NCBI GenBank assembly: GCA_029260295.1
Contig: JAJDDN010000008.1
Span: forward strand, 372,001 to 436,000
Source: Phycisphaerales bacterium
GTDB taxonomy: Bacteria; Planctomycetota; Phycisphaerae; Phycisphaerales; UBA1924
Length of the DNA: 64,000 nt
Direction of reading: 5' to 3'
Position numbers and translations under genes: made by a program. The notes below the pieces were generated by a model. It saw only the letters and a list, made by a program, of their open reading frames with translations, did no database searches and had not been told where the DNA came from. Positions 14,042-62,616 of the stretch are shown here, one piece after another. Position 1 is the first letter of the stretch. Each line of letters starts with the position of its first letter.

Positions 14042-15472
14042 GTGACCGGCGACCCCTCGAAAATCAATCCAGACTTCGATCCCGATGCCACGATCGAACA
14101 GGGCAAGACTGAGGTCGATGCCCATCGGGCAATGTCCGCCCCATTGGCACCGCTCCCGGAATCGATCGGCAAGTATCGGATCCTCTCCGAGATTGGCGAG
14201 GGCGGGATGGGGACGGTGCACGAAGCAGAACAGGATTCACCGAGGCGGAAGGTCGCGCTCAAGGTGATCAAGGCGGGGGCGGTGAGCAAAAACCTGTTGC
14301 TCCGTTTTGAGATCGAGGCACAGATTCTTGGGAAGCTCGATCATCCCGGGATCGCGACCATATTTGAAGCGGGGACCTTTGATGAGGGACATGGGCAGCA
14401 GCCATTTTTTGCGATGGAGTTTGTACAGGGCGAGTTGCTGACGGACTACGCGGAAAATCAAAAGCTCGGTACGCGTGATCGGCTTGGGCTGCTCGCCAAG
14501 ATAGCCGATGCCGTGCAACACGCGCATCAAAAGGGTGTGATCCACCGGGACCTCAAGCCGGGCAATATCCTCGTCAACAAGGAAGGGCAGATTAAGATTC
14601 TGGACTTTGGGGTTGCGCGTGCGACGGATGCTGATATCCAGACGGCAACAATGCAGACGGACATCGGACAGTTGATCGGGACGATCCCGTATATGAGTCC
14701 TGAACAAGCGTCCGGCAATCCGGATGATCTTGATACACGCAGCGATGTGTACGCGCTGGGGATCATTGCGTATGAGTTGTTGGCGGGGCAGATGCCGTAC
14801 GATGTGAAGCAGAAGATGATCCACGAGGCGGAGCGGGTTATCCGGGAGGACGAGCCAAAGGCACTCAGCTCGATTAACAAAGCCTTCCGAGGCGATGTCG
14901 AGATCATCATCAGCAAAGCGTTGATCAAGGAGAAGGAGCGGCGGTACCAGAGTGCCAGCGATCTTGCGAGCGATATCCAGCGGTATCTGAGAAATGAGCC
15001 GATTGAGGAGCGTCCGCCGAGTACTTGGTATCACTTGATCAAGTTTTCTCGACGGAACAAGGCTCTCGTTGCGGGTATTGCTGCGGTGCTTGTGGTGTCG
15101 GTGGTGGGGGCGTTGATCTCAATCAGCTTTGCGATGGGTGAGGCGGAGCAGAAACGCATTGCGATCGGCAATGCGGGGCAAGCACGCGAATCCCAGCATG
15201 AAGCCGAGACTGCACGCGCTGAGGTATCCAAGCGGGCCGATGAGCTCCAGCAGGTCGCGAACTTCCAAAGCAAGCAACTCGGCCAGATCGCGATTGAGAT
15301 GATGGGGACACAGCTGCGTGACTCGATTATCGAGGGTGCTCCCGAGGATACCAGGGCTGCCCTGAGTGAATCACTGGCGTCGGTGAACTTCACGAGCATC
15401 GCACTGGGGACACTGGAAGCCAATATCTTCATTCGGACGATCGAGGCTATCGATACGCAGTTTGTTGATTAG
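14042..15472 (+). CDS. Membrane serine/threonine protein kinase, N-terminal half of a split kinase-TPR gene
   Basis: A 476-residue kinase starting at GTG 14042, with AGGA at 14033-14036. The kinase domain spans about residues 43-315: glycine loop GEGGMGTV, lysine in VALKVI, catalytic loop HRDLKPGN, DFG and APE-equivalent SPEQ, all intact. A single membrane segment lies at about residues 339-362, followed by a coiled-coil-like region. The frame ends in TAG at 15470-15472, but the next codon continues in the same frame into PLVQAKML and a TPR array. Related planctomycete kinases, from memory, read through this point as one protein with Gln at the stop position. The kinase itself looks functional; a truncated product, readthrough or a recent nonsense change are all possible. 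Confidence 0.88.
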   Translation: MTGDPSKINPDFDPDATIEQGKTEVDAHRAMSAPLAPLPESIGKYRILSEIGEGGMGTVHEAEQDSPRRKVALKVIKAGAVSKNLLLRFEIEAQILGKLDHPGIATIFEAGTFDEGHGQQPFFAMEFVQGELLTDYAENQKLGTRDRLGLLAKIADAVQHAHQKGVIHRDLKPGNILVNKEGQIKILDFGVARATDADIQTATMQTDIGQLIGTIPYMSPEQASGNPDDLDTRSDVYALGIIAYELLAGQMPYDVKQKMIHEAERVIREDEPKALSSINKAFRGDVEIIISKALIKEKERRYQSASDLASDIQRYLRNEPIEERPPSTWYHLIKFSRRNKALVAGIAAVLVVSVVGALISISFAMGEAEQKRIAIGNAGQARESQHEAETARAEVSKRADELQQVANFQSKQLGQIAIEMMGTQLRDSIIEGAPEDTRAALSESLASVNFTSIALGTLEANIFIRTIEAIDTQFVD

Positions 15473-19062: not shown

Positions 19063-21444
19063 ATGCTGTCATCACGAATTCCGATTCTAATTTTACTTTC
19101 CACTGCGCTTTCGTCTTTGGGTTTAGCCGGGGTAGAGCCCACGCTTGATCAACGCTTAGAAAAACTCGCCGAAACCCTCGAAGCCGCTCGCATTGAGGCG
19201 CATGTTCCGGGTATGTCTATTGCGATCGTCAAGGATGACCAGGTCATCTGGACGCATAGCTTTGGGGTTGCCGATGTCGAATCACAAACGCCAGTTGATG
19301 AGCACACAATCTTTGGGATCGGCTCGACAACCAAAGCATTCACGGCTACATTGGTTGGGATGTTGGTCGATGAGGAGAAGACGACTTGGGATACGCCGGT
19401 GACTGAGTACCTTCCATACTTTGATCTCAATCTAAAAACAGACAACCAGAACGCCGAGTGTACACTGCGTGATTTGTTGAGTCATCGCCATGGCTTTGCG
19501 CGAATGGGATTACTCTGGTTTAGTGGTGAAGTTTCTCGTGATAAGATCCTTCAAACTGCGGTCAATGCTGAGCCGATCGATGAGTTTCGAGCTGGGTTTC
19601 ATTATTGTAATGTGACTTACCTCGCCGTGGGCGAGGCGGCCGGGGTTGCCAATGGGACCAGCTGGGACGAGATGATGGTAAGCCGTATATTCAAGCCGCT
19701 TGATATGGTATCGACAGTTGTTCATACTCCAGACTCAGAAGCAGATGCTACGGTCGCATCGGGATACAACTGGAATGAGTTTGATGAACAGTTCGACCGC
19801 GCCCCTTCGCTCGATATGAACAGCATAGCCCCAGCCGGCGGGGTGTATTCGAATGTGCTTGACATGGCTCAGTGGATTAGACTGCAACTTGGCGAAGGCG
19901 AAATCGATGAGAAGCGTTTGATTTCTTCCGAGCTCATCCAAGAAACATGGACGCCTCAAATCGAGATCGGAAACGGGGTTTCATATGGGCTCGGATGGAT
20001 GCTCAGGGAAGTTAACGGGCGCAAGGTTATCGAGCATGGAGGAATGATCCCTGGATTCAGTGCTCAGGTGAGTCTGATGCCTGAAGAAAATCTTGGCTAT
20101 GTACTGTTGATGAACCAAGGTATATCGCCGCTCGGTGCAGCGTCGGTGGAGTGGATCTTTAACTCAATACTTGAGCAATGGCCTGATGAATTGGAGCCTG
20201 ATGTTGATCAAGGCATCGACTTCGAGGAATTTACAGGCATTTACATCGCAAATTTTGCTAAGTTTCAAGATGAAAACTTTGAGATCCGCATCGTAGATGA
20301 TGGGCTGGAGCTCAATGTGCCAAGTCAGAGATCATTTGCTCTTAAAAACCCTGGAAGTGACGGGTTGTGGGTCTTTGAGTTGACTGATCAGATCGCTCTT
20401 TCTTTCAAGCGCGATCCTCAAGATACAGTTGTCGGTCTGGTCATGCATCAGAGCGGGTTCAGTTTCCAGGTCCCTCGCAAGGGGTATGAAGAGGCGGCCG
20501 TTGTTCCCGTTGATGAACTTGATCAATATCTGGGTGGTTATATCCGAGAGCAGGGCGGAAAAAAGGTGCAGATTGTCATCAATCGTGGTCGGCTTGCGAT
20601 GAATGACAAGGGAACACTTTTGGATTTTGAGACTCCTGATAAGCATGGGCACGCACCGCTGAGGGATCGCCCAGACTGGGGCGCGACATTTATGCACGAT
20701 GCGGAGGGCACGGTGGAGTCATTCGTGTTTCATGGTCGCGCTGGCGATAAGCTCTTTGTGCGTGAAGTTGAGGGATTGACTGCCAAGCTTCCAACCATTG
20801 AAGAAATCTATGAGCTTCGCAATACGAGCGGCAGAGTCGAATCCGCACAGAGAACTGGTGGAAAGAAAGCTACCGGCAAGATTTGGGTTGCGCAGTCAGG
20901 ATTGTCGGGCACTTTTGTCTCATACGCCCAAGGCCAGTTTCAGTACGCAAATCATATGGACTTTCATGAGCATGGCCATGTTGATATTGTCACCAGCGGC
21001 AAAGGGGCGTGGTACTTCGATTCAATGCGTGGCTTTAAAGCCCTCAAGGGTGATGAGCAAAAACAAGCGTTGCTCAAAGCGCCTGGCGCGATAGAGGGTG
21101 ATTGGGGTGAATACTTCGATTCGATTCAGGTCATCGGCACTGACATGGTTGATGATCGCCCTACATATGTTATCCGACTCAAGAAGGGCGAACTGCCCAG
21201 CCGAACATACAGAGTCGATGCTGAGTTTGGCGATGTAGTGCAAATCAATATGATTGAGACAGTCGGACAATCATCTGTTCCAGTCACGATCAGTTATTCG
21301 GAGTTTGAAGTCATCGACGGCTTCCGTACTCCCATGCGTGTCGTATCAGAAATTCCAGGGTCGGGTTTCACGATCATTACCATCGATGAGGTGGTGTCTG
21401 GGTTAGAACTCTCCGATGATGTATTCATGCTTGTTGATCAGTAA
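19063..21444 (+). CDS. Secreted serine hydrolase of the beta-lactamase/PBP4* family
   Basis: A 793-residue exported protein; ATG 19063 has GGAG at 19054-19057 and opens a clear signal peptide (residues 1-22). The catalytic domain (about 30-370) is class C beta-lactamase-like: SxxK as STTK at residues 88-91, the Tyr motif as YCN near 184 and HGG near 325 in place of KTG. The C-terminal half has a DUF3471-like lipocalin-type region and a further beta-rich domain of unknown role. Such proteins are esterases or D-aminopeptidases more often than antibiotic-resistance enzymes. A longer in-frame opening from 18850 overlaps the sigma gene and is not used. It stands 85 bases after that gene. Confidence 0.85.
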   Translation: MLSSRIPILILLSTALSSLGLAGVEPTLDQRLEKLAETLEAARIEAHVPGMSIAIVKDDQVIWTHSFGVADVESQTPVDEHTIFGIGSTTKAFTATLVGMLVDEEKTTWDTPVTEYLPYFDLNLKTDNQNAECTLRDLLSHRHGFARMGLLWFSGEVSRDKILQTAVNAEPIDEFRAGFHYCNVTYLAVGEAAGVANGTSWDEMMVSRIFKPLDMVSTVVHTPDSEADATVASGYNWNEFDEQFDRAPSLDMNSIAPAGGVYSNVLDMAQWIRLQLGEGEIDEKRLISSELIQETWTPQIEIGNGVSYGLGWMLREVNGRKVIEHGGMIPGFSAQVSLMPEENLGYVLLMNQGISPLGAASVEWIFNSILEQWPDELEPDVDQGIDFEEFTGIYIANFAKFQDENFEIRIVDDGLELNVPSQRSFALKNPGSDGLWVFELTDQIALSFKRDPQDTVVGLVMHQSGFSFQVPRKGYEEAAVVPVDELDQYLGGYIREQGGKKVQIVINRGRLAMNDKGTLLDFETPDKHGHAPLRDRPDWGATFMHDAEGTVESFVFHGRAGDKLFVREVEGLTAKLPTIEEIYELRNTSGRVESAQRTGGKKATGKIWVAQSGLSGTFVSYAQGQFQYANHMDFHEHGHVDIVTSGKGAWYFDSMRGFKALKGDEQKQALLKAPGAIEGDWGEYFDSIQVIGTDMVDDRPTYVIRLKKGELPSRTYRVDAEFGDVVQINMIETVGQSSVPVTISYSEFEVIDGFRTPMRVVSEIPGSGFTIITIDEVVSGLELSDDVFMLVDQ

Positions 21445-50969: not shown

Positions 50970-52061
50970 TTAGCCGCCGATGGCGGACATTGGGCGGTCG
51001 GGTTGCTGGTAGTCTTCGTCGTGGATTTTATGGCCGGCCTGCTTGCGAAGCGTAATAGCGATGAGGGCTTTGGCGATCATGCGATCGTCGGCGTTGCTCC
51101 GGAGGAGGGAGCGGATATCCCATTCGGTAGTCGAGAACAAGCACGACATCACACGCCCCTCGGCGGTGACTCGTAATCGCGAGCACGCGTTACAGAAAGG
51201 ACGGGTAACAGTGGCGATGACGCCGATCTTCCCTTCGGATCCATCGGCAAAACGGTAGCCGGTTGACGGGGCGTGGGGACGGGGACGGCCGATGGGGACG
51301 AGTTTGTGGCGTGCGTTGATCGATTCGATCATCTCGTCGGCGGTGACGACCTTATCCATCTCCCACCTTCGGCCCGAATCTAGCGGCATGTATTCAATGA
51401 GACGGACATCGACGCCCATTGTGCGGGCGAGGTCGGCGAGTTCTGGGAGTTCGTCTTCGTTGAAGCCTCGGATGACTACGGCGTTGATCTTAACCGGATT
51501 GAGCCCAACTTCCTTGGCCCACCGGACGGTCTGCAGGACGCGGGCGACCGAAGATTCGGATCGTGTGATGTGCGTGAAGCGGTCCTCGCGGACAGAGTCG
51601 AGCGAGACAGTGATCCGGTCGAGTCCGGCGTCTTTGAGTTCTTGGAGGTCAGCTTTGGTGGACAGTGAGCCGTTGGTTGTCAGGGCGATGTCTTCGATGT
51701 CAAGTGCTTTGAGATCGCGGATCAGCGCGGATAGTGTTGGGTGAACCATGGGCTCGCCGCCGGTGAGGCGGATTCGTTTGACACCCATCTTGGAGGCGAC
51801 GCGAACGAGGCGGACGATTTCAGAATCGGTCAAGAGCTCGACCTTGCGCTTGAAACGGATATTGGGGTCCATGCAATACCGGCAGCGGAAGTTGCAGCGG
51901 TCGGTGACGCAAATACGGAGGTCGCGGATGACACGGTTGTAGGAATCGCGGAGTTCGGTCCCGAGATCATCGCCAACCGAGTTGAGCAACGCAGAGTTGA
52001 GCTCGCGGGCATTGGATCCGGCGGCAGGCGCGTTGTTGAGGACTGGGAGTGTTGTGGTCAT
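50970..52061 (-). CDS. moaA: GTP 3',8-cyclase MoaA
   Basis: A 363-residue radical SAM enzyme opening molybdopterin synthesis. The N-terminal cluster motif is CNFRCRYC (preceded by CVTDR), the SAM motif TGGEP, and the second cluster CNACSRLR with a later Cys (VMSCLF). The sequence ends in GG, as required in known MoaA proteins. About 40 extra N-terminal residues precede the core. AGGAT eight bases before the ATG. Confidence 0.95.
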   Translation of the reverse strand: MTTTLPVLNNAPAAGSNARELNSALLNSVGDDLGTELRDSYNRVIRDLRICVTDRCNFRCRYCMDPNIRFKRKVELLTDSEIVRLVRVASKMGVKRIRLTGGEPMVHPTLSALIRDLKALDIEDIALTTNGSLSTKADLQELKDAGLDRITVSLDSVREDRFTHITRSESSVARVLQTVRWAKEVGLNPVKINAVVIRGFNEDELPELADLARTMGVDVRLIEYMPLDSGRRWEMDKVVTADEMIESINARHKLVPIGRPRPHAPSTGYRFADGSEGKIGVIATVTRPFCNACSRLRVTAEGRVMSCLFSTTEWDIRSLLRSNADDRMIAKALIAITLRKQAGHKIHDEDYQQPDRPMSAIGG

Positions 52062-52161
52062 CGGGTTATCCTAGTTGGTACACTCTGGATAATCGATGAA
52101 AAATAGCCCTGAACGAGCTATCCGATTGAGGTACCTGTAGCACTGCGATAATTCCAACAGA

Positions 52162-52821
52162 TTAATCAATGAAAGGTTCATCCCAAGATTCATCCCATGG
52201 CGAAGTTGTGTGGCTTCGTGGCTGGACATGGCAGGTCCGGCACTTTGCTTTGAGAACGATTTTGGGCAATCCCTCGTGCTTGATAATCGGCGCGTTTCGG
52301 GTTCCGTCTTCGTGACATAAGAGGCAGTTCTTCTTTCCCCATGCCCGTTCGTGTTTCTGATTGTTGGGCATCATCGGCGGAAAGGCCCATGATGCGAACT
52401 CTGAATCTTCGGTCTTTTGGGTATAGCTTGTATCACCCGGCATTAAGACATGGCACGAGCGGCATTTGGACTGGTAGGTGATGTCCGGAAGCCCTTTGTG
52501 ACGGATCTGCGGGGCATTTTGAACGCCGGTCTCGTGACAGTCGAGGCAGTCGTTTACGAACCAAGCATTTTGGTGCCACTCGCGATCTGGGATCGTGGGT
52601 GGGAATGCAGCGAGGGCAAATCCGGTTTCTGGATCAACTTCGATTTCAGATTCTCCGATTACGACCGATGGGGTTTGATCTACAAGCCCCTCGTTGGGAA
52701 TGATCTGAATCACCTCTGGATCAGATTCTGTGAACCCCGGCTCTAGAGTCACCCAGCCCGCCAGCGCGACCGCTGAACCGAGCGATAGCGGGATGAAAAA
52801 CTGTTTCAAATGCACTTTCAT
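52162..52821 (-). CDS. Tetraheme cytochrome c, NapB-like with internal duplication
   Basis: A 219-residue exported protein. ATG 52821 is supported by GGAG six bases upstream; it lies 16 bases after napA. After a membrane anchor or signal (FFIPLSLGSAVALAGW) two copies of a block of about 65 residues follow, each with two CxxCH sites: CLDCH/CRSCH and CLLCH/CRTCH, with the shared pattern NAPxIxHKGLP. NapB normally has two hemes; here the unit looks doubled. Most likely the electron partner of NapA. Confidence 0.8.
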   Translation of the reverse strand: MKVHLKQFFIPLSLGSAVALAGWVTLEPGFTESDPEVIQIIPNEGLVDQTPSVVIGESEIEVDPETGFALAAFPPTIPDREWHQNAWFVNDCLDCHETGVQNAPQIRHKGLPDITYQSKCRSCHVLMPGDTSYTQKTEDSEFASWAFPPMMPNNQKHERAWGKKNCLLCHEDGTRNAPIIKHEGLPKIVLKAKCRTCHVQPRSHTTSPWDESWDEPFID

Positions 52822-52837
52822 TGCACGCTCCATTGGA

Positions 52838-55168
52838 TTAGATCTTTTCGAGTTTGACGGCACACATTTTGAACTCAGGCTGCTTGGATCCCGGATCAAA
52901 TGCATCAATACAGACGAAGTTGATCAGAGAATCTTTGTCCTCCCAGCACCAAGGCACAAAGACCATCCCGGGCTGCGGCATATCCACCACGCGGGCACGG
53001 ATCTTGGCAACCCCGCGACGCGAGGTAATCTTGATCATGTCCCCCGAACGGATACCCATCTCGCGGGCATCCTTCGGATTTATTTCCATGAAGCTGTGTG
53101 GATATGCCCTGCGAAGTTCCTCGGCTCGCATCGTCATTGTCCCGCTGTGCCAGTGCTCCATCACACGCCCGGTCGAGAGAATAAACGGGTACTCTTCGTC
53201 GGCCGGCTCGGCGGGACCAAGAGCTGGACGCAGCCAAACAACCGCCCGTTGATCGGGTGCGGCGAAAAACTTTGATTCACCCTGGGCCAGAGTGTGGTCG
53301 GCGTATTTGCCGGCGTCGAGGTTTGGATCATCACCCTTCACAAATCGTCGTGCAGTACCTGGGTGATCTTCTGTGGGGCATGGCCAGCGGAGCCCCCGCT
53401 CTTTTTTAAGTCGCTCGCGGGTTATCCCCATGAAATCGTACGGGGTTCCTTTGGATGCGAGACGGATTTCATCCCACATGTCGTCTGTGTTCTTGAACTT
53501 GCCTTTGGTATAACCCTTTTTAACGACGCCTTTGTCTTCGAGGCGTCCAGCGAAGTCAAGCATAATGTCGAAGTCTGAGCGGGCTTGTCCGGGGGGTTGC
53601 TTGATTTGTGGGTGGAGTTGGTAGCGGCGTTCGGACATCCCGAAGACTCCGGTTTTTTCAGACCACATTGCGGCTGGAAGGACCAAGTCAGCGATTTCGG
53701 TCGTCCGCGTTGGGTAAATGTCGAGGCAGACAACGAATGGTTTGTCCTTGCGTTCTTTGCCGATTGCATCACGAACGGGATGAAGGTTTGGCATTGACTG
53801 ACCTGGGTTGGTAGTCAGGATCACCATTGCTTTGATTTTGTTCTCGCCTAGTGCGCGGAACATTTCGACCGTGTGGAGTCCGGGCTTTGATTGAATCGTT
53901 CCGGGTTTGGAGCCCCAGATTTTTTCCATATTCTGACGATCTTCCTTTTTCTTGAGTGATCGCCCGTATGGAAGAATGTGACACAGGGTGCCTGTATCTC
54001 TGACCCCGCCGCAGGCGTTGGGTTGCCCGGTCATCGAGAACGGGGTTGCTCCCGGCTTGCCAATATTTCCGGTTATCAGATGCAGATTGTGCATGAGGTT
54101 GTTTGCCCATACGCCCCGGGTGCGCTGGTTGAGCCCCATAGTCCAGATCGACATGGTCGGGCCATATGAGAATAGCTTGGCGGCTTCTTCGATTTGCTCG
54201 GCGGGGACCCCTGATTGCATCTCGGCTCGTTCTGGGGTGAAGTCTTCGAGGAACTTGACATAGCCTTCGAAGCCAACATTGATGGGCTCACCGTCCTGCA
54301 TGATCTTGAACTGGCAGTTTTTATCAATGAACTCTGGATCGTGGTGCCTATCACGGATGAGGCAATGTGCCATGGAATGGAACACGGCGAGGTCATATCC
54401 GGGCGTGGGGGCGAGATGCAAGCGTGCGATGGAAGCGGCGGGGCTCTTGCGAGGATCGAGCACGATTACATTAAGACGGCGGTTTTGTTGTTTGGCGGCC
54501 AGGATCTGGTCAAAGATGACCGGGTGGCATTCAGCGGTATTCGAGCCGACCAAAAAGATGGTGTTGGCGTGCCAGATATCTTCGTAGCAGCCCATTGGTT
54601 CATCTTTTCCAAAGGTCGTGACATACCCGCCGGCTGCTGATGCCATGCAAAGACGGGGGTTCCCTTCGACATTGTTGGTGCCGATTCCGCCCTTGAAGAG
54701 GCGGTTGCAGAGATAGCTTTCCTCTGTCATTGCTTGGCCCGAGCCGTAGTAGGCGACGGAGTCGGGGCCGTGCTTCTTGATTGCTTTGGCGAACTTGTCA
54801 GCCATCAGTTCCATCGCTTCTTCCCACTCGATGGGAACAAACTTGCCGTCCTTGCGGAGCATTGGAGTTGTTAGGCGGTCTTTGGAATGGACAATTTTGG
54901 GGAGGAAGAGTGATTTGGCGCAGACGAGGCCTTTGGTTGTTGGATGCTCAGGATCACCACGCATCGCGATGATCTGATCACCCTTGTGGCCAATCATGAC
55001 GCCGCAGCCGGTGCCACAAAAGCGGCAGACTGATTTAGTCCACTGGACCGCGGAATCTTGGATTGATTCATTGAGTTCTTCTGCGACGGCTGGGGATCCA
55101 CCCGCGGCGACTGCCGCAACACTTGCCATTGCGGATGTTTTTATGAAGTCTCGTCTGTCGTTATCCAT
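52838..55168 (-). CDS. napA: Periplasmic nitrate reductase catalytic subunit NapA
   Basis: A 776-residue molybdoenzyme of the DMSO reductase family. A Tat signal is present (RRDFIK). The 4Fe-4S motif CRFCGTGC plus a Cys in GLVCAKS is followed by the Mo-ligand Cys in NPRLCMASA, as in Desulfovibrio-type NapA. Further marks are GSNTAECHP, GQPNACGG and the C-terminal cofactor-binding STGRVMEHWHSGTMT. It reduces nitrate to nitrite in the periplasm. napD lies upstream, the tetraheme gene downstream. Confidence 0.95.
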   Translation of the reverse strand: MDNDRRDFIKTSAMASVAAVAAGGSPAVAEELNESIQDSAVQWTKSVCRFCGTGCGVMIGHKGDQIIAMRGDPEHPTTKGLVCAKSLFLPKIVHSKDRLTTPMLRKDGKFVPIEWEEAMELMADKFAKAIKKHGPDSVAYYGSGQAMTEESYLCNRLFKGGIGTNNVEGNPRLCMASAAGGYVTTFGKDEPMGCYEDIWHANTIFLVGSNTAECHPVIFDQILAAKQQNRRLNVIVLDPRKSPAASIARLHLAPTPGYDLAVFHSMAHCLIRDRHHDPEFIDKNCQFKIMQDGEPINVGFEGYVKFLEDFTPERAEMQSGVPAEQIEEAAKLFSYGPTMSIWTMGLNQRTRGVWANNLMHNLHLITGNIGKPGATPFSMTGQPNACGGVRDTGTLCHILPYGRSLKKKEDRQNMEKIWGSKPGTIQSKPGLHTVEMFRALGENKIKAMVILTTNPGQSMPNLHPVRDAIGKERKDKPFVVCLDIYPTRTTEIADLVLPAAMWSEKTGVFGMSERRYQLHPQIKQPPGQARSDFDIMLDFAGRLEDKGVVKKGYTKGKFKNTDDMWDEIRLASKGTPYDFMGITRERLKKERGLRWPCPTEDHPGTARRFVKGDDPNLDAGKYADHTLAQGESKFFAAPDQRAVVWLRPALGPAEPADEEYPFILSTGRVMEHWHSGTMTMRAEELRRAYPHSFMEINPKDAREMGIRSGDMIKITSRRGVAKIRARVVDMPQPGMVFVPWCWEDKDSLINFVCIDAFDPGSKQPEFKMCAVKLEKI

Positions 55169-55227
55169 TTCTTACTCCCTTAACGGATGATTCGGGGACG
55201 CATTCTGAGCCCGGATCACCCCTGTAA

Positions 55228-55476
55228 TCAGTTGTGAACCTGTTCATCTTCTGTATTGACATACACCGGCCACACGCCCAGCACGCCGGGGGTGGTTCGG
55301 ATGGTTGTTGTGATTGTGGAATGAGCTTCGTTGAGCGAATCTGCTTCTACGAGTACTCCAAGCTTGTCGGGGTCTTCAATATCAAAAATACTGACCCCTG
55401 CAATCTCTTCAAGTGCCGATTGGCATGAGGAGATGAGGTCGGATTCGATTCGAGCAAATGCTCCAACAATGGCCAT
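55228..55476 (-). CDS. napD: NapD-like chaperone
   Basis: An 82-residue cytoplasmic protein of NapD size and fold: GAFARIESD, then ALEEIAGVSIFDIEDPDKLGVLVE as strand-helix pattern, and a VWPVYV strand. NapD binds the Tat signal of NapA and delays its export until the cofactor is in place. It stands 59 bases upstream of napA on the same strand. Confidence 0.85.
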   Translation of the reverse strand: MAIVGAFARIESDLISSCQSALEEIAGVSIFDIEDPDKLGVLVEADSLNEAHSTITTTIRTTPGVLGVWPVYVNTEDEQVHN

Positions 55477-55644
55477 AGAGAATCTCCATTTGAGGGACGA
55501 TCAATAATCCGGACATGCTAGTCCTTAAATTCTTGGGACACAATAGGAAACCATTCAAATACGGAGAAATGCCTCTGTTTTTATGCTTTCGCAAGAACAG
55601 GAGATTGAAGCGTGGCTGGCAAGTTACTGGTCAAATATCGTTAA

Positions 55645-56022
55645 CTACTTAGCTGACTTCCAGATCGGAACATCTTGCTTGAGGCGGTCTATGAACTCGT
55701 CCATTGCCAACAGTCCCTCTCTTCGATGCTTGGAATCAATCACAAGTCGAAATGAGCATTCGAAGTTAGGAACGAAGCCGACCGAGTGTTCAATATCCAT
55801 TGCAATCAGACCGTGTCTTTCATGCAGTTCAAGTCCGATAATTTCAAGTTGCTGCTCGGCCATGGGGCGATATGCTTCATAGTGCAGCCCCTGGATATCT
55901 GCCCCGCCTTCGGTTGGGCGAACGACTCCATCAAAGATGGCACGGGCGCCTGAGCCTTGGATGTAAGGAGTTCGGGCCAATGCGGTCAGTGGGCCTTGGG
56001 TTAACCGAGTGTGCACATTCAT
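55645..56022 (-). CDS. moaE: Molybdopterin synthase catalytic subunit MoaE
   Basis: A 125-residue protein: GARAIFDGVVRPTEGG, LHYEAYRPMAEQQL and a C-terminal VPIWKSAK with the active-site lysines. It converts cyclic pyranopterin to molybdopterin using sulfur from MoaD. Its ATG is two bases after the moaD stop. The H-x-G-x-L-x(n) segment corresponds to SVGFVPNFECSF. Confidence 0.9.
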   Translation of the reverse strand: MNVHTRLTQGPLTALARTPYIQGSGARAIFDGVVRPTEGGADIQGLHYEAYRPMAEQQLEIIGLELHERHGLIAMDIEHSVGFVPNFECSFRLVIDSKHRREGLLAMDEFIDRLKQDVPIWKSAK

Positions 56023-56024
56023 AA

Positions 56025-56273
56025 TTAGCCTCCCGAGACCATTGTGATGAGTGCAGTTTCGTGTTCGGCGTTGACCTTCGTGTCAACAGCCACAAAGCTT
56101 TGGTTGACAGCCAGTCTTCCCGCTTGGAGAAACACATCAAGGGTGGGAAACTGCAGAGACATCAGATCTTTGAGTTGGCCAGCTGAGCATAACTCTTTAG
56201 ATTCGATCACCACCCGGTCCGCTTTGACAGCCGCCGCCGCCGGTCCGAAGAGGAGTATTGTGTATTGCACCAT
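56025..56273 (-). CDS. moaD: Molybdopterin synthase sulfur-carrier subunit MoaD
   Basis: An 82-residue ubiquitin-like protein with the essential C-terminal Gly-Gly (TMVSGG), which is thiocarboxylated by MoeB. Strand LFGPAAAAVKADRV and segment LAVNQSFVAVDTKV match the family. Forms the synthase with MoaE, encoded next to it. No moeB is in the window. Confidence 0.9.
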   Translation of the reverse strand: MVQYTILLFGPAAAAVKADRVVIESKELCSAGQLKDLMSLQFPTLDVFLQAGRLAVNQSFVAVDTKVNAEHETALITMVSGG

Positions 56274-56321: not shown

Positions 56322-57173
56322 TTAGAGAGTGCGATTTTCTCGTGGGCTGTAGTTCAGGAAGGTGCCGGTCGTTTGCCAGAGTTCTTCAAGACGATCGATC
56401 CGTTTGTGAGCTTCCTTGCCAAGCTGCGTAACCACCTGAGCGACCAAGAGCTCGGCTGTCATCACCGCAGGAATGGAGCTATCAAACGGCCCTACAGCTG
56501 GAATATTAATTTCACACCAAGTCTTGGTAAGTGAGGCCAGTGGGGAGAGGGGGCCATCAGTAATCGCGACAATTTTCACGCCGAGCTCAGATAATGCACG
56601 GGCAGCTGTAATTGAGTTACGCCGGTACCGGGCAAAATCAAAGACAACCGCTGCATCCCCCATTGAAGCACTGCTCAGATCTCGCCCTGTGGAATGCTCT
56701 TCTACAAGTATCACATTGGGCCGGATCATGGACAAGCCACTCTGCAAAGTGATCGCTCCAGCCATCGAGGTTTCACCAGAGAGTATCCAGACATTCTTTG
56801 CCTGGGCGATCGGGGTAGCCAGAGCCTTCAGTCGGCGTTCATCAAGAGCGGCAAAGGTTTCATGGATCGAGCTGTCAATTGCAGCGCGGATGGGTCCGAG
56901 TGATCCGTCCTGATGTCGAACCCGATGGCTGGGGCTAGATAGTTGGTGTGATAACTCATCGCGGATCCAGCTTTGCAGATCCGTGTAGCCCTCGAACCCA
57001 AGCTTGGTCGCGAATCTGACGATAGAAGGCCTACTGGTGTCGGCTCGATTGGCGAGGTCCGATACAGTACCAAATGCGAGGAGCGTCGGATCCTCAAGAA
57101 CAAGGGCGGCGATTCGCCGTTCAGTTGGAGTCAGCCGATCGCTACTTTCAGCAATCAGATCTTGTATCGACAT
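56322..57173 (-). CDS. MurR/RpiR-family transcriptional regulator
   Basis: A 283-residue regulator: N-terminal RpiR-type helix-turn-helix (residues about 15-75; LTPTERRIAALVLEDP, TSRPSIVRFATKLGFEGY) and a C-terminal SIS domain (about 120-260; NVWILSGETSMAGA, VKIVAITDGPLSPLASL) that usually binds a sugar phosphate or similar ligand. ATG 57173 has GGAG eight bases upstream. It is divergent from the aminomutase operon, with the operon's -35 box in its leader, and 48 bases upstream of moaD. Control of the aminomutase operon is the natural guess; control of the nap/moa genes is possible too. Confidence 0.87.
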   Translation of the reverse strand: MSIQDLIAESSDRLTPTERRIAALVLEDPTLLAFGTVSDLANRADTSRPSIVRFATKLGFEGYTDLQSWIRDELSHQLSSPSHRVRHQDGSLGPIRAAIDSSIHETFAALDERRLKALATPIAQAKNVWILSGETSMAGAITLQSGLSMIRPNVILVEEHSTGRDLSSASMGDAAVVFDFARYRRNSITAARALSELGVKIVAITDGPLSPLASLTKTWCEINIPAVGPFDSSIPAVMTAELLVAQVVTQLGKEAHKRIDRLEELWQTTGTFLNYSPRENRTL

Positions 57174-57176
57174 CGC

Positions 57177-57205
57177 TTGCACTCCGGTGGGCAGTGTGTT
57201 ACAAT
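57177..57205 (+). promoter_or_regulatory. Promoter of the aminomutase operon
   Basis: TTGCAC (57177-57182), 17-base spacer, TACAAT (57200-57205). It resembles the argR promoter in both hexamers and spacing. The leader is about 65 bases; GGAG at 57266-57269 serves the first gene. The -35 lies four bases before the divergent regulator's start codon, so binding there could control both. Confidence 0.6.
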
Positions 57206-57277
57206 CGCGTAAGTCTAGTGTTCATATCATTACGAGGCCAGTCTAGTCATTAGTCGTCACTTTTTGGAGCTTAGTTC

Positions 57278-58696
57278 ATGCCAGTTTCGCAAGAATACAC
57301 CCGTACAGCTAAAGAACAGGCCTTTCTCGAGACCGTCACAGATATCCCGCACAAGCGTGAGATTATCAATGGGCTCGCGCCGTTCCTCAAAGGGACCGCG
57401 CCCGAGGATCTTCAATCCCTCTACAGCTCTGACGAACTCGTCCAACTCGGCGGGCTCAAAGATAGCAATCGTGATGTCGAAAAACGGATGCCTGTCAAGG
57501 TCACCCGGCACTTTGCAGAGCTTGCGAAGAACAGCCCCGCGATCCAGAAGCTCGTCAAGGCCAGCCCCGACGAAACACTTGACCTCGCCGGCTCAGAAGA
57601 TCCAGGCAACCAGATGGACTACTCCCCTGTCGAAGGGCTCCTCCACAAATACGAAATGGGACTGATGTATGTCGTCTCCACATGCTCGGCCCACTGCCGC
57701 TTCTGCTACCGCGAAGAACTGATCGCCCGCAAAGAAATCGAACGGGCAGACGGGACCGTCGCCAAGAAGGGGATGGCCAAGATTCCCGAGATCGTTGCGT
57801 ACATCAACTCGTTCAACGATGCCGTTGAATCAAATGGCGGGCGTCACCCAGACTGCGGCCGAGAAAAACTCCGCGAGATCCTGCTTTCGGGCGGTGATCC
57901 AATGGTCCTCAACAACGCCAAACTCGCCGCGTGGTTCTCCGCTTTGGCAGAGGCCGGCATCGAGTCCATTCGCGTTGGCACCAAGGAAATGGCGTTCTAT
58001 CCACAGCGGTTCGACGATACATTCTTCGCAATGCTCGACGGCTTCCATGCTGCGTACCCGGAAGTTGGTATGCACTTCATGGTCCACTTCGAGCATCCCG
58101 ACGAATTCCTTGCCAAATCCGACGATGGCGAGTACATCAAGGATGATAAAGGTTTCCTCGCATGGGTTCCCGAGACCGGAAGAGCAATGCGTGGGCTTCT
58201 CGATCGCGGGTGGATCACCGTTGAAAACCAGACGCCGATTATCAAAGACATCAATGACGATCCCGACGCCCTCCGCATCATGCAGCGCGAGATGAAACGC
58301 GTCGGTGCTGACAACCACTACTTCTTCTGCGGGCGGGACATCGTCGCCTACAAAGCGTTCAACATCCCCATCGAAGAATCCTGGCGGATCCTTAACGAGT
58401 CCCAGAAAGGACTCTCGGGGGTTGAGAACCACGCCAAGCTCTCGATCACACACTACAAAGGCAAAACCGAGGTTGTGGCGGTCACCAACGAACCCATCCC
58501 CGGACTCGCGGGCAGCGAAAACGGCGTGGTGATCCTCAAACTCCTCCGGAATCCTGCGGACGCGTCTGAGCGGGGCAAAATCTGTATCGTTGGGCGAAAC
58601 CCTGAAGCGGCATGGTTTGATGATTACGAGGACAGTGTTCTGTTTGATGAAGCGGGCTTGTTCAGTTACAATCGTCTGGTTAAAGAAGAATCATAA
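57278..58696 (+). CDS. Radical SAM 2,3-aminomutase (KamA family), substrate uncertain
   Basis: A 472-residue PLP-dependent radical SAM protein. The cluster motif is CSAHCRFC (Cys 136, 140, 143), the SAM motif SGGDP about 205, and the PLP lysine in THYKGKTEV (K394 or K396). It is related to lysine 2,3-aminomutase but longer. By eye, the lysine-binding Asp293 of the clostridial enzyme falls on D354, now preceded by Arg (GRD), while Asp330 falls on His/Thr 391-392. Lysine is therefore unlikely; a substrate with a distal carboxylate such as glutamate or 2-aminoadipate fits better. EF-P-modifying EpmB is shorter. It begins a three-to-four gene operon (TAATG overlap with the next). Confidence 0.87.
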   Translation: MPVSQEYTRTAKEQAFLETVTDIPHKREIINGLAPFLKGTAPEDLQSLYSSDELVQLGGLKDSNRDVEKRMPVKVTRHFAELAKNSPAIQKLVKASPDETLDLAGSEDPGNQMDYSPVEGLLHKYEMGLMYVVSTCSAHCRFCYREELIARKEIERADGTVAKKGMAKIPEIVAYINSFNDAVESNGGRHPDCGREKLREILLSGGDPMVLNNAKLAAWFSALAEAGIESIRVGTKEMAFYPQRFDDTFFAMLDGFHAAYPEVGMHFMVHFEHPDEFLAKSDDGEYIKDDKGFLAWVPETGRAMRGLLDRGWITVENQTPIIKDINDDPDALRIMQREMKRVGADNHYFFCGRDIVAYKAFNIPIEESWRILNESQKGLSGVENHAKLSITHYKGKTEVVAVTNEPIPGLAGSENGVVILKLLRNPADASERGKICIVGRNPEAAWFDDYEDSVLFDEAGLFSYNRLVKEES

Positions 58697-59406
58697 TGAT
58701 CAACAAGCAAATCAAGAGTGCTGCCGATGCCGTCGCTGATGTGTTTGACGGTGCGGTGGTAATGATCGGCGGATTCGGTGAAGCCGGCAGCCCGATCGAA
58801 CTGATCCATGCTCTTATTGATCAGGGCGCAAAAGATCTGACGGTTGTGAGTAACAACACCGGGAGCGGATTGGTCGGGCTGGCTGCGTTGCTCAAGGCCG
58901 AGCGCGTGTCCAAGATCATCTGTTCCTTCCCACGCACGGCCAACTCGACGGTGTTCCCTGATCTCTACCGGAGCGGGAAGACCGAGCTTGAGCTTGTGCC
59001 TCAGGGAACCCTCGCCGAACGCATCCGCGCCGGAGGAGCGGGGATTCCTGGGTTCTACACGCCGGCGGCGGTGGGGACGCCACTGAGTGAGGGGAAAGAG
59101 AGCCGAGAGTTTGATGGTCAGGAGTATCTTCTTGAACGCGGACTCAAGGCGGATTTCGCTCTGATTAAAGGGCGGGTTGCTGATACCTTCGGCAATGTGG
59201 TCTACAACAAAACCGCTCGCAACTTTGGTCCTCCTATGGCGATGGCGGCCAAGGTCGCCATTGTTCAGGTCGATGAGGTTGTGGAACCGGGGCAAATCGA
59301 TCCCGAAAGTATCGTCACCCCAGGCATCTTTGTGAGCCGGGTCGTTGGTGTATCCAATCCAGTGTTTGAGTCAGAACTCGTCGCAGCCGGAGTGTCTTAT
59401 CCATGA
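58696..59406 (+). CDS. 3-oxoacid CoA-transferase subunit A, PcaI-like
   Basis: A 236-residue alpha subunit of a family I CoA transferase. VVMIGGFGEAGSP, LKAERVSKIICSFPR and ADFALIKGRVADTFGN match 3-oxoadipate CoA-transferase PcaI more closely, by memory, than acetoacetate-type ScoA. It would move CoA from succinyl-CoA to a 3-oxo acid. The ATG overlaps the preceding stop by one base and the next gene begins inside its stop (ATGA). Confidence 0.9.
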   Translation: MINKQIKSAADAVADVFDGAVVMIGGFGEAGSPIELIHALIDQGAKDLTVVSNNTGSGLVGLAALLKAERVSKIICSFPRTANSTVFPDLYRSGKTELELVPQGTLAERIRAGGAGIPGFYTPAAVGTPLSEGKESREFDGQEYLLERGLKADFALIKGRVADTFGNVVYNKTARNFGPPMAMAAKVAIVQVDEVVEPGQIDPESIVTPGIFVSRVVGVSNPVFESELVAAGVSYP

Positions 59407-60065
59407 GCGAGCAAAGCACAGTAGTCGGACGCACCCGAGACGAGATGGCCAAACGCCTGGCGCAGGACATCCCGAGCGGTTCGTATGTCAACCTCGGTAT
59501 CGGGATTCCAGAACTGGTCACCAAGTTTGTTCCCGATGGACGAACACTGATTTACCATACAGAGAACGGATTGCTTGGCATGGGGCCTTCGCCCGAGCCG
59601 GGCAAGGGTGATCCGGAACTAATTAATGCGGGCAAGCGTCATGTAACGGCTATCCCCGGGGCAGCATTTTTTCACCATGCCGATAGCTTTGCAATGATCA
59701 GAGGCGGGCATATCGACCTGTGTGTGCTTGGTGCGATGCAGGTTTCAAAGGACGGAGATCTGGCCAACTGGTCAACCGGCGCACCCGATGCTATCCCAGC
59801 GGTTGGCGGCGCGATGGATCTTGTTGCAGGTGTCAAATCTGTGTATGTGATTACCCAGCATTGCACCAAGCACGGCGATCCCAAACTCGTTGATTCATGT
59901 ACATTCCCACTCACAGGGAAACAAGTTATCAATCGCATTTACACCGATCTTGCGGTTGTCGATGTCACGCCCGATGGGTTCAGGGTTGTAGAACTGAGCC
60001 CGGGTGTGGATTTCGAGTATGTCCAGCAACGCACCGGTGCGCCGCTTTTGCCAATCAAAGATTAA
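59403..60065 (+). CDS. 3-oxoacid CoA-transferase subunit B, PcaJ-like
   Basis: A 220-residue beta subunit. The catalytic Glu is E54 in TENGLLGMGP; other marks are YVNLGIGIPELV, FHHADSFAMIRGGH and IPAVGGAMDLVAGV. Sequence order and wording match PcaJ. Together with subunit A it forms the transferase. No other protocatechuate-pathway genes (pcaGH, pcaB, pcaC, pcaD) are nearby, so aromatic degradation is not the obvious role. Confidence 0.9.
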   Translation: MSEQSTVVGRTRDEMAKRLAQDIPSGSYVNLGIGIPELVTKFVPDGRTLIYHTENGLLGMGPSPEPGKGDPELINAGKRHVTAIPGAAFFHHADSFAMIRGGHIDLCVLGAMQVSKDGDLANWSTGAPDAIPAVGGAMDLVAGVKSVYVITQHCTKHGDPKLVDSCTFPLTGKQVINRIYTDLAVVDVTPDGFRVVELSPGVDFEYVQQRTGAPLLPIKD

Positions 60066-60081
60066 CCATGAGATCCATGAC

Positions 60082-61404
60082 ATGAGTATCCCAACCGAAA
60101 CCTCGCGAAGTGCAGATCTTTACGCCCGAGCAACCAAAGTTCTTCCAGGCGGGGTGAGCAGGAATACCGTTCTGCGTGATCCGCATCCCGCGTATGCAGA
60201 TTTCGGATCGGGCTGCCGGATCACAGATATCGAAGGAGTTACGCGGCTCGACTTCTCCAATAACATGGCATCATTGATCCATGGACACGCGTGCCCCGAG
60301 ATCGTCCAGAGCGTATCTCAACAACTCGCCAAAGGATCGGCATTCACGATGGCGACGGAAATGGAAGTCCGTTACGCGGAGCTTTTGTGTGATCGAAATC
60401 CCGGATTCGAAAAACTAAGATTTGTCAACTCTGGCACCGAGGCATTGATGGTCGCACTCAAGGCATCTCGTGCCTTCACAGGCCGTCCAAAGATCGCCAA
60501 GGTCGAGGGCGCGTACCACGGCGGGTACGACTATGCAGAAGTCAGCCAATCACCAAATCCCGAGAACTGGGGGGACATTGATCAACCCAAAAGCGTGCCC
60601 CTAGCCCATGGGACTCCGGATTCAGCGCTCGACGATGTGGTCATTATCCCATTCAACGATCCGGAGCGTGCGATCGCGATCCTCAACGAGAACGCAGCGG
60701 ATCTGGCATGTGTGCTTCTTGATCTGATGCCGCACCGGGTCGGGCTCAGGCCCGCCGAGGCCGAGTTTGTGACGGCGATCCGGGAATGGACATCCAATAA
60801 CGGCTCGCTGCTTGTACTCGACGAGGTCATCACTTTCCGCACAGAATATAGCGGGTTGCAGACCCGGTACGGCATCACTGCTGATCTAACCGCGCTCGGG
60901 AAGATGATTGGTGGCGGCTTTCCCATTGGTGCAGTCACCGGTCGATCCGATGTCATGGATGTCCTCAACCCACGATCAAAGAAACTCTTATTCCCACATT
61001 CGGGTACCTTCTCAGCAAATCCGATTAGTACCACCGCGGGCTTTGTAGCACTGGAGAAGTTCGATAAGCAGTCGGTTGAGCGCCTCAATGCTCTCGCCCA
61101 GCGTGCGATCATTGGTGTTACCAATGCCATTTCAGAGTCCGGGATAACAGCATGTGTGACAGGTGGCGGCTCAATGTTCCGTGTTCATATGAAAGAACGA
61201 GAACCACACAACTTTCGTGAGGCGTATCTCACCCCAAAGCAAGATGGCCAAATCAAACTGCTACTCAATCACATGTTCGATGAGGGCTTTGTGCTGATCA
61301 ACACCTGCACAGCGACGCTATCAACTCCGATGACCGAAGTCGAGATTGATGCCCTTGTAGATGCCTTCAAAGGCGGGTTCGAGCGGATTGTTTCTGAGGG
61401 TTGA
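60082..61404 (+). CDS. Class III aminotransferase, GSA-aminomutase-like
   Basis: A 440-residue PLP enzyme of the glutamate-1-semialdehyde aminomutase/beta-amino acid aminotransferase branch. PLP lysine K274 (ALGKMIGGGFP), Asp247 in LDEVI, NSGTEALMVALK and GAYHGGYD are visible. The start at 60082 agrees with the family N-terminus (ADLYARATKVLPGGVSR); a longer frame from 60004 overlaps the CoA-transferase. Unlike hemL it sits in a CoA-transferase operon, which suggests transamination of a beta-amino acid. 16 bases after subunit B. True hemL cannot be ruled out by sequence alone. Confidence 0.82.
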   Translation: MSIPTETSRSADLYARATKVLPGGVSRNTVLRDPHPAYADFGSGCRITDIEGVTRLDFSNNMASLIHGHACPEIVQSVSQQLAKGSAFTMATEMEVRYAELLCDRNPGFEKLRFVNSGTEALMVALKASRAFTGRPKIAKVEGAYHGGYDYAEVSQSPNPENWGDIDQPKSVPLAHGTPDSALDDVVIIPFNDPERAIAILNENAADLACVLLDLMPHRVGLRPAEAEFVTAIREWTSNNGSLLVLDEVITFRTEYSGLQTRYGITADLTALGKMIGGGFPIGAVTGRSDVMDVLNPRSKKLLFPHSGTFSANPISTTAGFVALEKFDKQSVERLNALAQRAIIGVTNAISESGITACVTGGGSMFRVHMKEREPHNFREAYLTPKQDGQIKLLLNHMFDEGFVLINTCTATLSTPMTEVEIDALVDAFKGGFERIVSEG

Positions 61405-61410
61405 TCTAAA

Positions 61411-62616
61411 CTAGGCTCGCTCGAAGACGGTTGCGAGGCCCTGGCCGACCCCTACGCACAACGAAGCAAGCCCACGCTCCGCATCAGTGCGGATCATCTC
61501 ATGAATCAAGGTCGTTGCAATCCGTGCGCCGCTGCAACCCAGCGGGTGCCCGATGGCGATCGCACCGCCATTGACATTGAGTTTCTCATCCGGGATATTG
61601 AGATCTCTAGCACACGCGATGGACTGGGCGGCAAACGCCTCGTTAAGTTCGATAAGATCGATGTTATCGAGTCCAAGCTTTGCACGCTCGAGTGCCTTGC
61701 GGATCGCAAAGACGGGACCGATCCCCATGAACGCAGGATCAACACCGGCCGCGGCGCTGGCCCCAACAAATGCGAGCGGTTTGAGGCCTAGTTCTTTGGC
61801 TCGCTGTTCTTCGACGATCAAGAGCGCCGCCGAACCATCGTTCACGCCCGATGAGTTACCCGCAGTCACAGTGCCTTGGTCATCACTGGCAAATGCTGGG
61901 CGGAGTTTGGCGAGTTTGTCAAGTGTAGTGCTTGGGCGTGGATGTTCATCTGTGTCAAAGAGGATCGGATCCTCTTTACGCTGTGGAATCTCAATGGGCA
62001 CGATCTCGTCATTGAAAAATCCGCGTTCCTTGGCGGCTGCCCATTTCTGTTGGCTTTGCATCGCGAACTGGTCCTGATCGTCCCGGCTAATCTGGTACTT
62101 TCGCGCGACATTCTCTGCGGTTTCACCCATGGGATACGGGGAATGGAGTTCAGAGAGGCGGGGGTTGATGAATCGCCAGCCGATGGATGTGTCGTAAAGT
62201 TGTTGATTCCGAGCGTACGCGACATCAGGTTTGCTGAGGACATATGGGGCTCTGCTCATCGACTCAACGCCGCCAGCAATAAACACATCGCCGTGGTCGG
62301 CTTCGATCATCCGTGCAGCGATATTAATTGCATCAAGACCGGATGCACAAAGTCGGTTGACGGTCGAACCCGGAACGCTCGCCGGGAGTCCCGCCAGCAG
62401 AGAAGCCATCCTCGCAACATTCCGGTTGTCTTCCCCGGCCTGGTTGGCGGCACCGAAATACACATCATCAATGAGCCTGGCGTCAATACCTGAGCGATCC
62501 ACCACGGCTCGGATAGCATGTGCAGCCAGATCGTCGGGTCGGATTGATGACAATGAGCCGCCAAAGCGGCCAACAGGAGTTCGTAGTGCGCAAATTATTG
62601 CTGCTCTTCGTTGCAT
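61411..62616 (-). CDS. Thiolase, 3-oxoadipyl-CoA thiolase (PcaF)-like
   Basis: A 401-residue thiolase with Cys90 (NRLCASGL), His357 (GHPLG) and Cys387 (LCVGVGQG). The segment ANQAGEDNRNVARMASLLAGLP and GVDPAFMGIGP are typical of PcaF-type enzymes as I remember them. It would split a 3-oxoacyl-CoA to acetyl-CoA and a shorter acyl-CoA. It converges on the aminotransferase gene with six bases between the stops, so it is not in the same transcript, though its placement suggests a shared pathway. Confidence 0.92.
   Translation of the reverse strand: MQRRAAIICALRTPVGRFGGSLSSIRPDDLAAHAIRAVVDRSGIDARLIDDVYFGAANQAGEDNRNVARMASLLAGLPASVPGSTVNRLCASGLDAINIAARMIEADHGDVFIAGGVESMSRAPYVLSKPDVAYARNQQLYDTSIGWRFINPRLSELHSPYPMGETAENVARKYQISRDDQDQFAMQSQQKWAAAKERGFFNDEIVPIEIPQRKEDPILFDTDEHPRPSTTLDKLAKLRPAFASDDQGTVTAGNSSGVNDGSAALLIVEEQRAKELGLKPLAFVGASAAAGVDPAFMGIGPVFAIRKALERAKLGLDNIDLIELNEAFAAQSIACARDLNIPDEKLNVNGGAIAIGHPLGCSGARIATTLIHEMIRTDAERGLASLCVGVGQGLATVFERA

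Follow-up and report, generated by a model that had tools for sequence, protein, structure and literature searches.

A conserved operon of uncultured Phycisphaerales that may degrade lysine through 2-aminoadipate

Within the 64,000-nucleotide stretch of DNA analysed here (hereafter the window; positions 372,001 to 436,000 of contig JAJDDN010000008.1, from a Phycisphaerales bacterium), four closely packed genes encode a divergent aminomutase of the KamA family (KAM), the two subunits of a coenzyme A (CoA) transferase (CTA and CTB) and a class III aminotransferase (AT), and a thiolase gene (THL) converges on them. I propose that the genes of this locus, as a catabolic operon, break down L-2-aminoadipate (lysine in its oxidised form), an assignment that the sequence evidence presented below makes reasonably probable. 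I attach similar confidence to the reading of KAM as an L-2-aminoadipate 2,3-aminomutase at the head of a lysine pathway that conserves carbon; this pathway would be common among uncultured Phycisphaerales and would also occur on a Mesorhizobium plasmid. The logic of the pathway, that is 2,3-aminomutation, transamination, CoA transfer and thiolysis, is very likely to be correct.

In the order and catabolic direction that I infer from the genes, families, linkage and co-occurrence observed, the proposed route would run as follows. Two enzymes encoded elsewhere in the genome, one resembling lysine 6-dehydrogenase and the other a piperideine-6-carboxylate dehydrogenase, would convert lysine to 2-aminoadipate. 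KAM would then shift the 2-amino group to C3, yielding 3-aminoadipate, and AT would pass this amino group to an oxo acid, leaving 3-oxoadipate. Taking CoA from succinyl-CoA, CTA and CTB would form 3-oxoadipyl-CoA, and its cleavage by THL would give acetyl-CoA and succinyl-CoA, so that the CoA donor is regenerated. The general sequence from alpha-amino acid to beta-amino acid, 3-oxo acid and 3-oxoacyl-CoA had been suggested in an initial annotation of this DNA; genes, families and linkage fit it, the step order being deduced.

Conservation and layout of the operon

I analysed a sample of 294 genomes of the phylum (designated by G-numbers, with G000 for the genome studied here, and by L-numbers for individual loci). 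KAM is present at 67–100% identity in 10 of these, G000 included (hereafter the KAM+ genomes); among the remaining matches listed, the best has an E-value of 3.4e-32, and identities do not go above 43% and cover only parts of the sequence. The order KAM-CTA-CTB-AT is kept in all nine other KAM+ genomes, four of which also have the RpiR-family regulator gene described below next to the operon. A scan of named genomes covered the best 80 of 371 KAM relatives (73–92% identity; L096 is probably the same record as G203), each gene being counted only at loci whose contig leaves room for it. CTA was found at 77/77, CTB at 71/71 and AT at 65/65 of these loci, and a divergent RpiR gene at 41/66; the closest named KAM among the 80 belongs to a Phycisphaerales metagenome-assembled genome (MAG; L044, 92% identity). 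Within the order, 112 of 400 genomes carry KAM, as do 19 of 21 in the genus among the matches listed, the two misses being ∼61% complete. The linkage of these genes is far beyond chance. The initial annotation had called for a check on the co-occurrence of all five genes: KAM, CTA, CTB and AT are constant, but the thiolase lies beside the operon at 54 of 62 named loci and in only one of the nine phylum genomes.

Outside the planctomycetes, a scan of plasmids gave 129 matching records, of which a single one, a Mesorhizobium plasmid, exceeds 60% KAM identity. Its locus encodes KAM (65% identity) and AT (56% identity) with the ferredoxin FdxA between them, plus a CoA-transferase pair. This pair is not PcaIJ-like, and is nearest to the glutaconate CoA-transferase 1poi (74 and 116 bits), the first subunit having been read from an open reading frame (ORF) with a TTG start that is absent from the gene table of the record and may be incomplete. 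Since Mesorhizobium keeps KAM and AT together with another type of CoA-transferase, the conserved unit is KAM, AT and some CoA-transferase, with the thiolase as a frequent addition.

A few loci deserve separate mention. The Mesorhizobium FdxA (L034:13468–13791) is a possible electron donor for a radical S-adenosylmethionine (SAM) enzyme, and BREX defence genes lie upstream of that plasmid locus. In L122, one of the 54 loci with a thiolase, a 36-residue thiolase remnant (14180–14287) occupies the usual site and a full gene follows ∼5 kb on (19454–20656), as if displaced by insertion or duplication. At L093:12171–14176 the CTB and AT matches fall in several frameshift-like pieces, and these genes may be broken, through sequencing errors or decay. 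Finally, L100 (titled Chitinophaga pinensis) and L101 (titled Alphaproteobacteria bacterium) contain a Phycisphaerales-like operon with KAM at 74% and 76% identity, and are probably mislabelled or mis-binned MAGs.

The genome itself, of a Phycisphaerales-type planctomycete, is an 8-contig assembly of 2.9 Mb that is 92% complete. The coordinates and families of the tight operon and its convergent thiolase were confirmed as first annotated (Table 1). KAM, CTA, CTB and AT form one operon on the + strand, adjacent ORFs overlapping by 1 or 4 bases or lying 16 bases apart; the start of AT is the ATG at 60082, inside a longer ORF ending at 61404 (+). The earlier gene list lacked the divergent RpiR gene, whose product is probably the local regulator of the operon. 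Upstream, inspection by eye of window positions 50970–56273 (-) revealed ordinary genes, for a molybdoprotein like periplasmic nitrate reductase, for a protein like a c-type cytochrome and for the molybdenum cofactor, with no link to the operon seen.

Table 1. The operon and its flanking features, in window coordinates.
Feature	Position	Strand	Product length	Basis
KAM, divergent KamA-family radical SAM/pyridoxal phosphate (PLP) 2,3-aminomutase	57278..58696	+	472 aa	NCBIfam scores, motifs, fold match
CTA, 3-oxoacid CoA-transferase subunit A (PcaI/ScoA type)	58696..59406	+	236 aa	TIGR02429
CTB, 3-oxoacid CoA-transferase subunit B (PcaJ/ScoB type)	59403..60065	+	220 aa	TIGR02428
AT, class III aminotransferase, proposed to transaminate a beta-amino acid (3-aminoadipate)	60082..61404	+	440 aa	match to 6k8h
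THL, 3-oxoadipyl-CoA thiolase-like, convergent to operon	61411..62616	-	401 aa	pcaF score, motifs
RpiR-family regulator (SIS domain), divergent from operon	56322..57182	-		PF01418, PF01380
95-base divergent intergenic region, probable promoter/operator	57183..57277			position between RpiR and KAM ORFs

Evidence bearing on the substrate

KAM matches only KamA-type models in NCBIfam and lies below the cut-off of every one: TIGR00238 (88.5 bits; cut-off 199.2), arginine (82; 600), and the equivalogs for glutamate 2,3-aminomutase (72.1; 650) and lysine 2,3-aminomutase (67.7; 525.4). It is thus more divergent than first thought, and a Pfam scan at E 0.001 returned no match. Its best PDB match by both sequence and fold is lysine 2,3-aminomutase 2a5h (Foldseek E 2.9e-11, template modelling (TM) score 0.52), using a structure model with a mean predicted local distance difference test (pLDDT) of 73 and a predicted TM score of 0.78. 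In a tree of 16 operon members and 20 relatives, the operon KAM forms its own clade (support 100/100), on a stem of 3.0 changes per column; because long branches meet beside this clade, its nearest relatives are not settled.

The radical SAM motif CSAHCRFC starts at residue 136 (C136/C140/C143) and SGGDP spans residues 204–208. The cluster cysteines and SGGDP are invariant in 48 KAM members, as are R145, R353, S389 and K396. Sequence alignment with KamA relatives pairs R145 with R134 of lysine aminomutase, K396 with the lysine of GGGGK, R353 with D293 and S389 with D330 (this last pairing hangs on one gap), and a profile alignment to 2a5h also places R353 on Asp293. In lysine 2,3-aminomutase I take R134 to be the substrate carboxylate site, the GGGGK lysine to be the PLP lysine, and Asp293 and Asp330 to hold the lysine amine. 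KAM resembles KamA (2a5h) and glutamate 2,3-aminomutase in its CxxxCxxC and SGGDP motifs and in the positions of the PLP lysine and carboxylate arginine, but differs from them in its length of 472 residues, its separate clade, the lack of a GGGGK motif, the arginine in place of Asp293 and the missed NCBIfam cut-offs. The comparison of the distal pocket, advised in the initial annotation, uncovered the change from the lysine-binding Asp293 to an invariant arginine, which is however not exclusive to this family.

The CoA-transferase is of the PcaIJ/ScoAB (3-oxoacid) type by sequence, both subunits scoring over their subfamily cut-offs: CTA scores 340 bits on pcaI_scoA (TIGR02429; cut-off 128.5) and CTB 296 bits on pcaJ_scoB (TIGR02428; cut-off 243.6). 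CTB has an ENG motif at residue 54, presumably with a catalytic role. THL reaches 572.7 bits on the NCBIfam model pcaF, and is PcaF-like while short of the equivalog cut-off of 597; the best model for anything other than a 3-oxoadipyl-CoA thiolase gives 480. The solved beta-ketoadipyl-CoA thiolase 6pca is its third-best PDB match (453 bits), and it contains Cys/His/Cys motifs that I assume to have their known thiolase roles. Within the family of the genome studied here, a PcaF-like thiolase occurs where the operon is present (572 bits in G000, 567 in G095) and not in five sampled operon-free genomes (best 347). G058, another KAM+ genome, has such a thiolase at 548 bits that does not adjoin the operon.

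A supply of 2-aminoadipate is suggested by the distribution of the 2-aminoadipate-forming piperideine-6-carboxylate dehydrogenase (NF050084; NCBIfam cut-off 730 bits). Presence was set at 700 bits, a line chosen after viewing the scores; 109 of the 114 carriers pass 730, and five matches at 445–641 bits, several of them partial, were counted as absent. The dehydrogenase is found in 10/10 KAM+ and 104/284 KAM- genomes of the phylum (Fisher one-sided 6e-5), the gene of the present genome (C3:93625) scoring 710 bits, under the cut-off. In G092 the gene is directly beside the operon (L040:4282–5907, 735 bits). Upstream of this step, gene C8:553946 of the present genome has 3abi (PH1688), which I take to be an L-lysine 6-dehydrogenase, as its best PDB match (185 bits). 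A weaker relative (87 bits to 3abi) immediately precedes the dehydrogenase gene in G231, a member of the same order without KAM. The same piperideine-6-carboxylate dehydrogenase family is used in the D-lysine route of Pseudomonas putida. As to other fates of 2-aminoadipate, the glutaryl-CoA route is not evident in the present genome, where the sole PF02771 acyl-CoA dehydrogenase is ACAD9/VLCAD-like (as far as a search with a single Pfam domain goes, the assembly being 92% complete); G095 also has a single PF02771 match. A mutual exclusion of KAM and the 2-oxoadipate enzyme HglS looked striking in 17 hand-picked genomes (HglS in 1/10 KAM+ against 6/7 KAM-; Fisher 0.004). I do not count it as main evidence, since HglS is rare in the phylum sample (20/294 genomes) and the pattern is confined to the surroundings of the order studied here.

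Several observations weigh against 2-aminoadipate as the substrate. For KAM, the HMMER segment that aligns R353 with Asp293 scores only 3.9 bits, residues 352–360 of the model, the loop that holds R353, have pLDDT values below 50, and an arginine at the same place is also found in other divergent KamA groups (YYLFQCR, YYVFQGR, YYMFVER; L014–L033). Because of these groups, R353 suggests that lysine is not the substrate more than it suggests an acidic one. The dehydrogenase is a family-level trait, also present in 20/20 KAM- genomes from the six families in which KAM occurs, and therefore the co-occurrence test compares six lineages rather than genomes. It adjoins the operon in G092 only, with no close relative in the other 89 of 90 loci examined. 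Moreover, a BoxB gene (L040:15750–17267, 749 bits) lies ∼10 kb from the G092 dehydrogenase gene, and in G196 (L162:1083–4202) the dehydrogenase is near a BoxC-like gene of the enoyl-CoA hydratase family and a BoxB-like gene, the latter identified by eye with no Pfam match; part of the dehydrogenase signal may therefore stem from another pathway to 3-oxoadipyl-CoA. PF16653 is found in only 5/10 KAM+ genomes, one of these matches being carboxynorspermidine-synthase-like, and G095 carries both KAM and HglS. Lastly, in 7/10 KAM+ genomes no thiolase exceeds 377 bits on pcaF (best 357–377), which means that a general thiolase must perform the cleavage in these genomes.

G092 and G196 belong to one planctomycete family. 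The Box genes represent another route to 3-oxoadipyl-CoA.

Two other substrates were weighed. The same scheme could act on L-glutamate, via beta-glutamate and 3-oxoglutarate to malonyl-CoA and acetyl-CoA; glutamate 2,3-aminomutase is a known enzyme (NCBIfam TIGR04368), which also has a basic residue at the place of Asp293, and R353 would suit any distal carboxylate. I regard glutamate as quite unlikely, given the 72 bits of KAM against a cut-off of 650 on that very model and the PcaF-like thiolase, and it would leave unexplained the dehydrogenase in 10/10 KAM+ genomes and its position in G092. A different amino acid treated by the same logic is distinctly improbable, be it leucine, via beta-leucine to isobutyryl-CoA and acetyl-CoA, or lysine, via beta-lysine. 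A 2,3-aminomutation of leucine and a transaminase/CoA route for beta-lysine were reportedly proposed decades ago by Poston and by Bozler and Barker. Beta-leucine was one of the compounds on which StoTA, the enzyme closest to AT, was assayed (PMC10589169). Against these stand the replacement of Asp293 by arginine and of Asp330 by serine, the PcaF-like thiolase and the glutaconate-type CoA-transferase of Mesorhizobium. Lysine 5,6-aminomutase (PF09043) was matched in 0/10 KAM+ genomes, a result of little weight given that the control matched nowhere either.

2-Aminoadipate, which the initial annotation had named as a candidate, is favoured because of the co-occurrence with the dehydrogenase and the linkage in G092, the PcaF-like thiolase, the distal-pocket R353, and the glutaconate-type CoA-transferase of Mesorhizobium, which points to an enzyme of a dicarboxylate-using kind; the substrate itself is deduced from these.

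The aminotransferase and the order of the steps

AT scores 307.7 bits on the NCBIfam model hemL (TIGR00713), against a cut-off of 527.3. The best match of its structure model (pLDDT 85) is 6k8h (44% identity, TM 0.92), followed by ForI 6ssd, and then by the Mesorhizobium beta-transaminase 2ykx, D-phenylglycine aminotransferase and glutamate-1-semialdehyde aminomutases. The enzyme in 6k8h is StoTA, described as transaminating several beta-amino acids, with R36 suggested to bind the substrate carboxyl in the P-pocket (PMC10589169). R27 of AT aligns with this R36, and R27 and K274 are invariant in 44 AT members. AT thus shares the proposed carboxylate arginine and the PLP lysine with StoTA (6k8h), ForI (6ssd), MesAT (2ykx) and VpAT (4ao9), and differs from them in its presumed substrate, 3-aminoadipate, and in being encoded inside a catabolic operon. 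By these comparisons it is probably a beta-amino acid transaminase, here proposed for 3-aminoadipate.

I considered and rejected the idea that AT is the HemL of the organism and the cluster a chance neighbourhood, which is extremely improbable. In its favour, AT is the best HemL-like gene of the genome; the remaining two class III genes score 130 and 47 bits on hemL. However, in a tree of 31 rows, the 15 rows of operon AT and the 7 of HemL form separate clades (100/100 and 95/92), the long branches being among the nine other rows. The operon AT also stays at a sub-cut-off 307–340 bits on hemL in 10/10 KAM+ genomes, and 6/10 have a separate, better HemL-like gene (486–577 bits); two of these six pass 527, one of them (G092) with an in-frame TAG. 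In addition, hemL matches in five operon-free genomes of the same family do not go beyond 185 bits. The initial annotation had itself raised the concern that AT might be firmly a HemL, with no conserved linkage, and this is dispelled by the separate clade and by the presence of KAM-CTA-CTB-AT in 9/9 genomes and of AT at 65/65 loci.

Among the seven sampled genomes of the family, nearly complete ones included, no hemL match above 185 bits was found besides the operon AT.

A different order of steps on 2-aminoadipate is also conceivable, in which 3-aminoadipate is first converted to its CoA ester and AT acts on 3-aminoadipyl-CoA. Kat, a HemL-like transaminase, takes CoA esters and N-acetylcysteamine mimics and not the free beta-amino acids tried (PMC3149608), and free 3-oxo acids are described as unstable (PMC10589169). 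This order nevertheless seems unlikely, as CTA and CTB belong to a 3-oxoacid CoA-transferase family, and among PDB structures AT comes closest to transaminases acting on free beta-amino acids, with retention of the arginine proposed to bind the free carboxylate.

Relation to known pathways and significance

A close precedent is found in Cloacamonas, where Kat, a transaminase of 3-aminobutyryl-CoA, works with KamA, AtoAD and a thiolase in lysine fermentation (PMC3149608). The proposed route is like this one in combining KamA, a HemL-like beta-transaminase, a CoA-transferase and a thiolase in one pathway, so that the earlier statement that no described pathway has this set needs qualifying. In the Cloacamonas pathway a 5,6-aminomutase, a dehydrogenase and a cleavage enzyme are interposed, and the substrate of Kat is a CoA ester; unlike there, the four genes here make up one operon. 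With the beta-ketoadipate tail PcaIJF, the route shares the CoA-transferase and thiolase families and likely 3-oxoadipate and 3-oxoadipyl-CoA, but it would be fed by an amino acid rather than an aromatic ring, and its thiolase is slightly under the PcaF cut-off. CatIJ is a comparable beta-ketoadipate CoA-transferase.

2-Aminoadipate is also the upstream metabolite of the HglS and glutaryl-CoA routes. HglS acts on 2-oxoadipate in Pseudomonas and plants (PMC7286885), and lysine is partly routed through 2-aminoadipate in Phaeobacter (PMC5653290). The HglS and glutaryl-CoA routes both pass through 2-oxoadipate and lose CO2, whereas the one proposed here would retain all six carbons. A literature search found no report of a 2-aminoadipate aminomutase, going by titles and with most subscription journals outside its coverage. 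The route is probably undescribed, though its logic is related to that of the Kat-type lysine fermentation.

If the assignment is correct, KAM would represent a new radical aminomutase specificity and 3-aminoadipate a new beta-amino acid intermediate in primary metabolism. The nearest family models, KamA and HemL, would mislead the annotation of both KAM and AT. The enzymes could also serve the conversion of lysine to adipate-type chemicals, for which the lack of enzymes deaminating lysine, beta-lysine or 2-aminoadipate is given as the hurdle in PMC7241714. For the organisms themselves, lysine would be broken down with retention of all its carbons and with succinyl-CoA as an end product, and a gene family carried by about a quarter (112/400) of the genomes sampled in this planctomycete order would gain a function.

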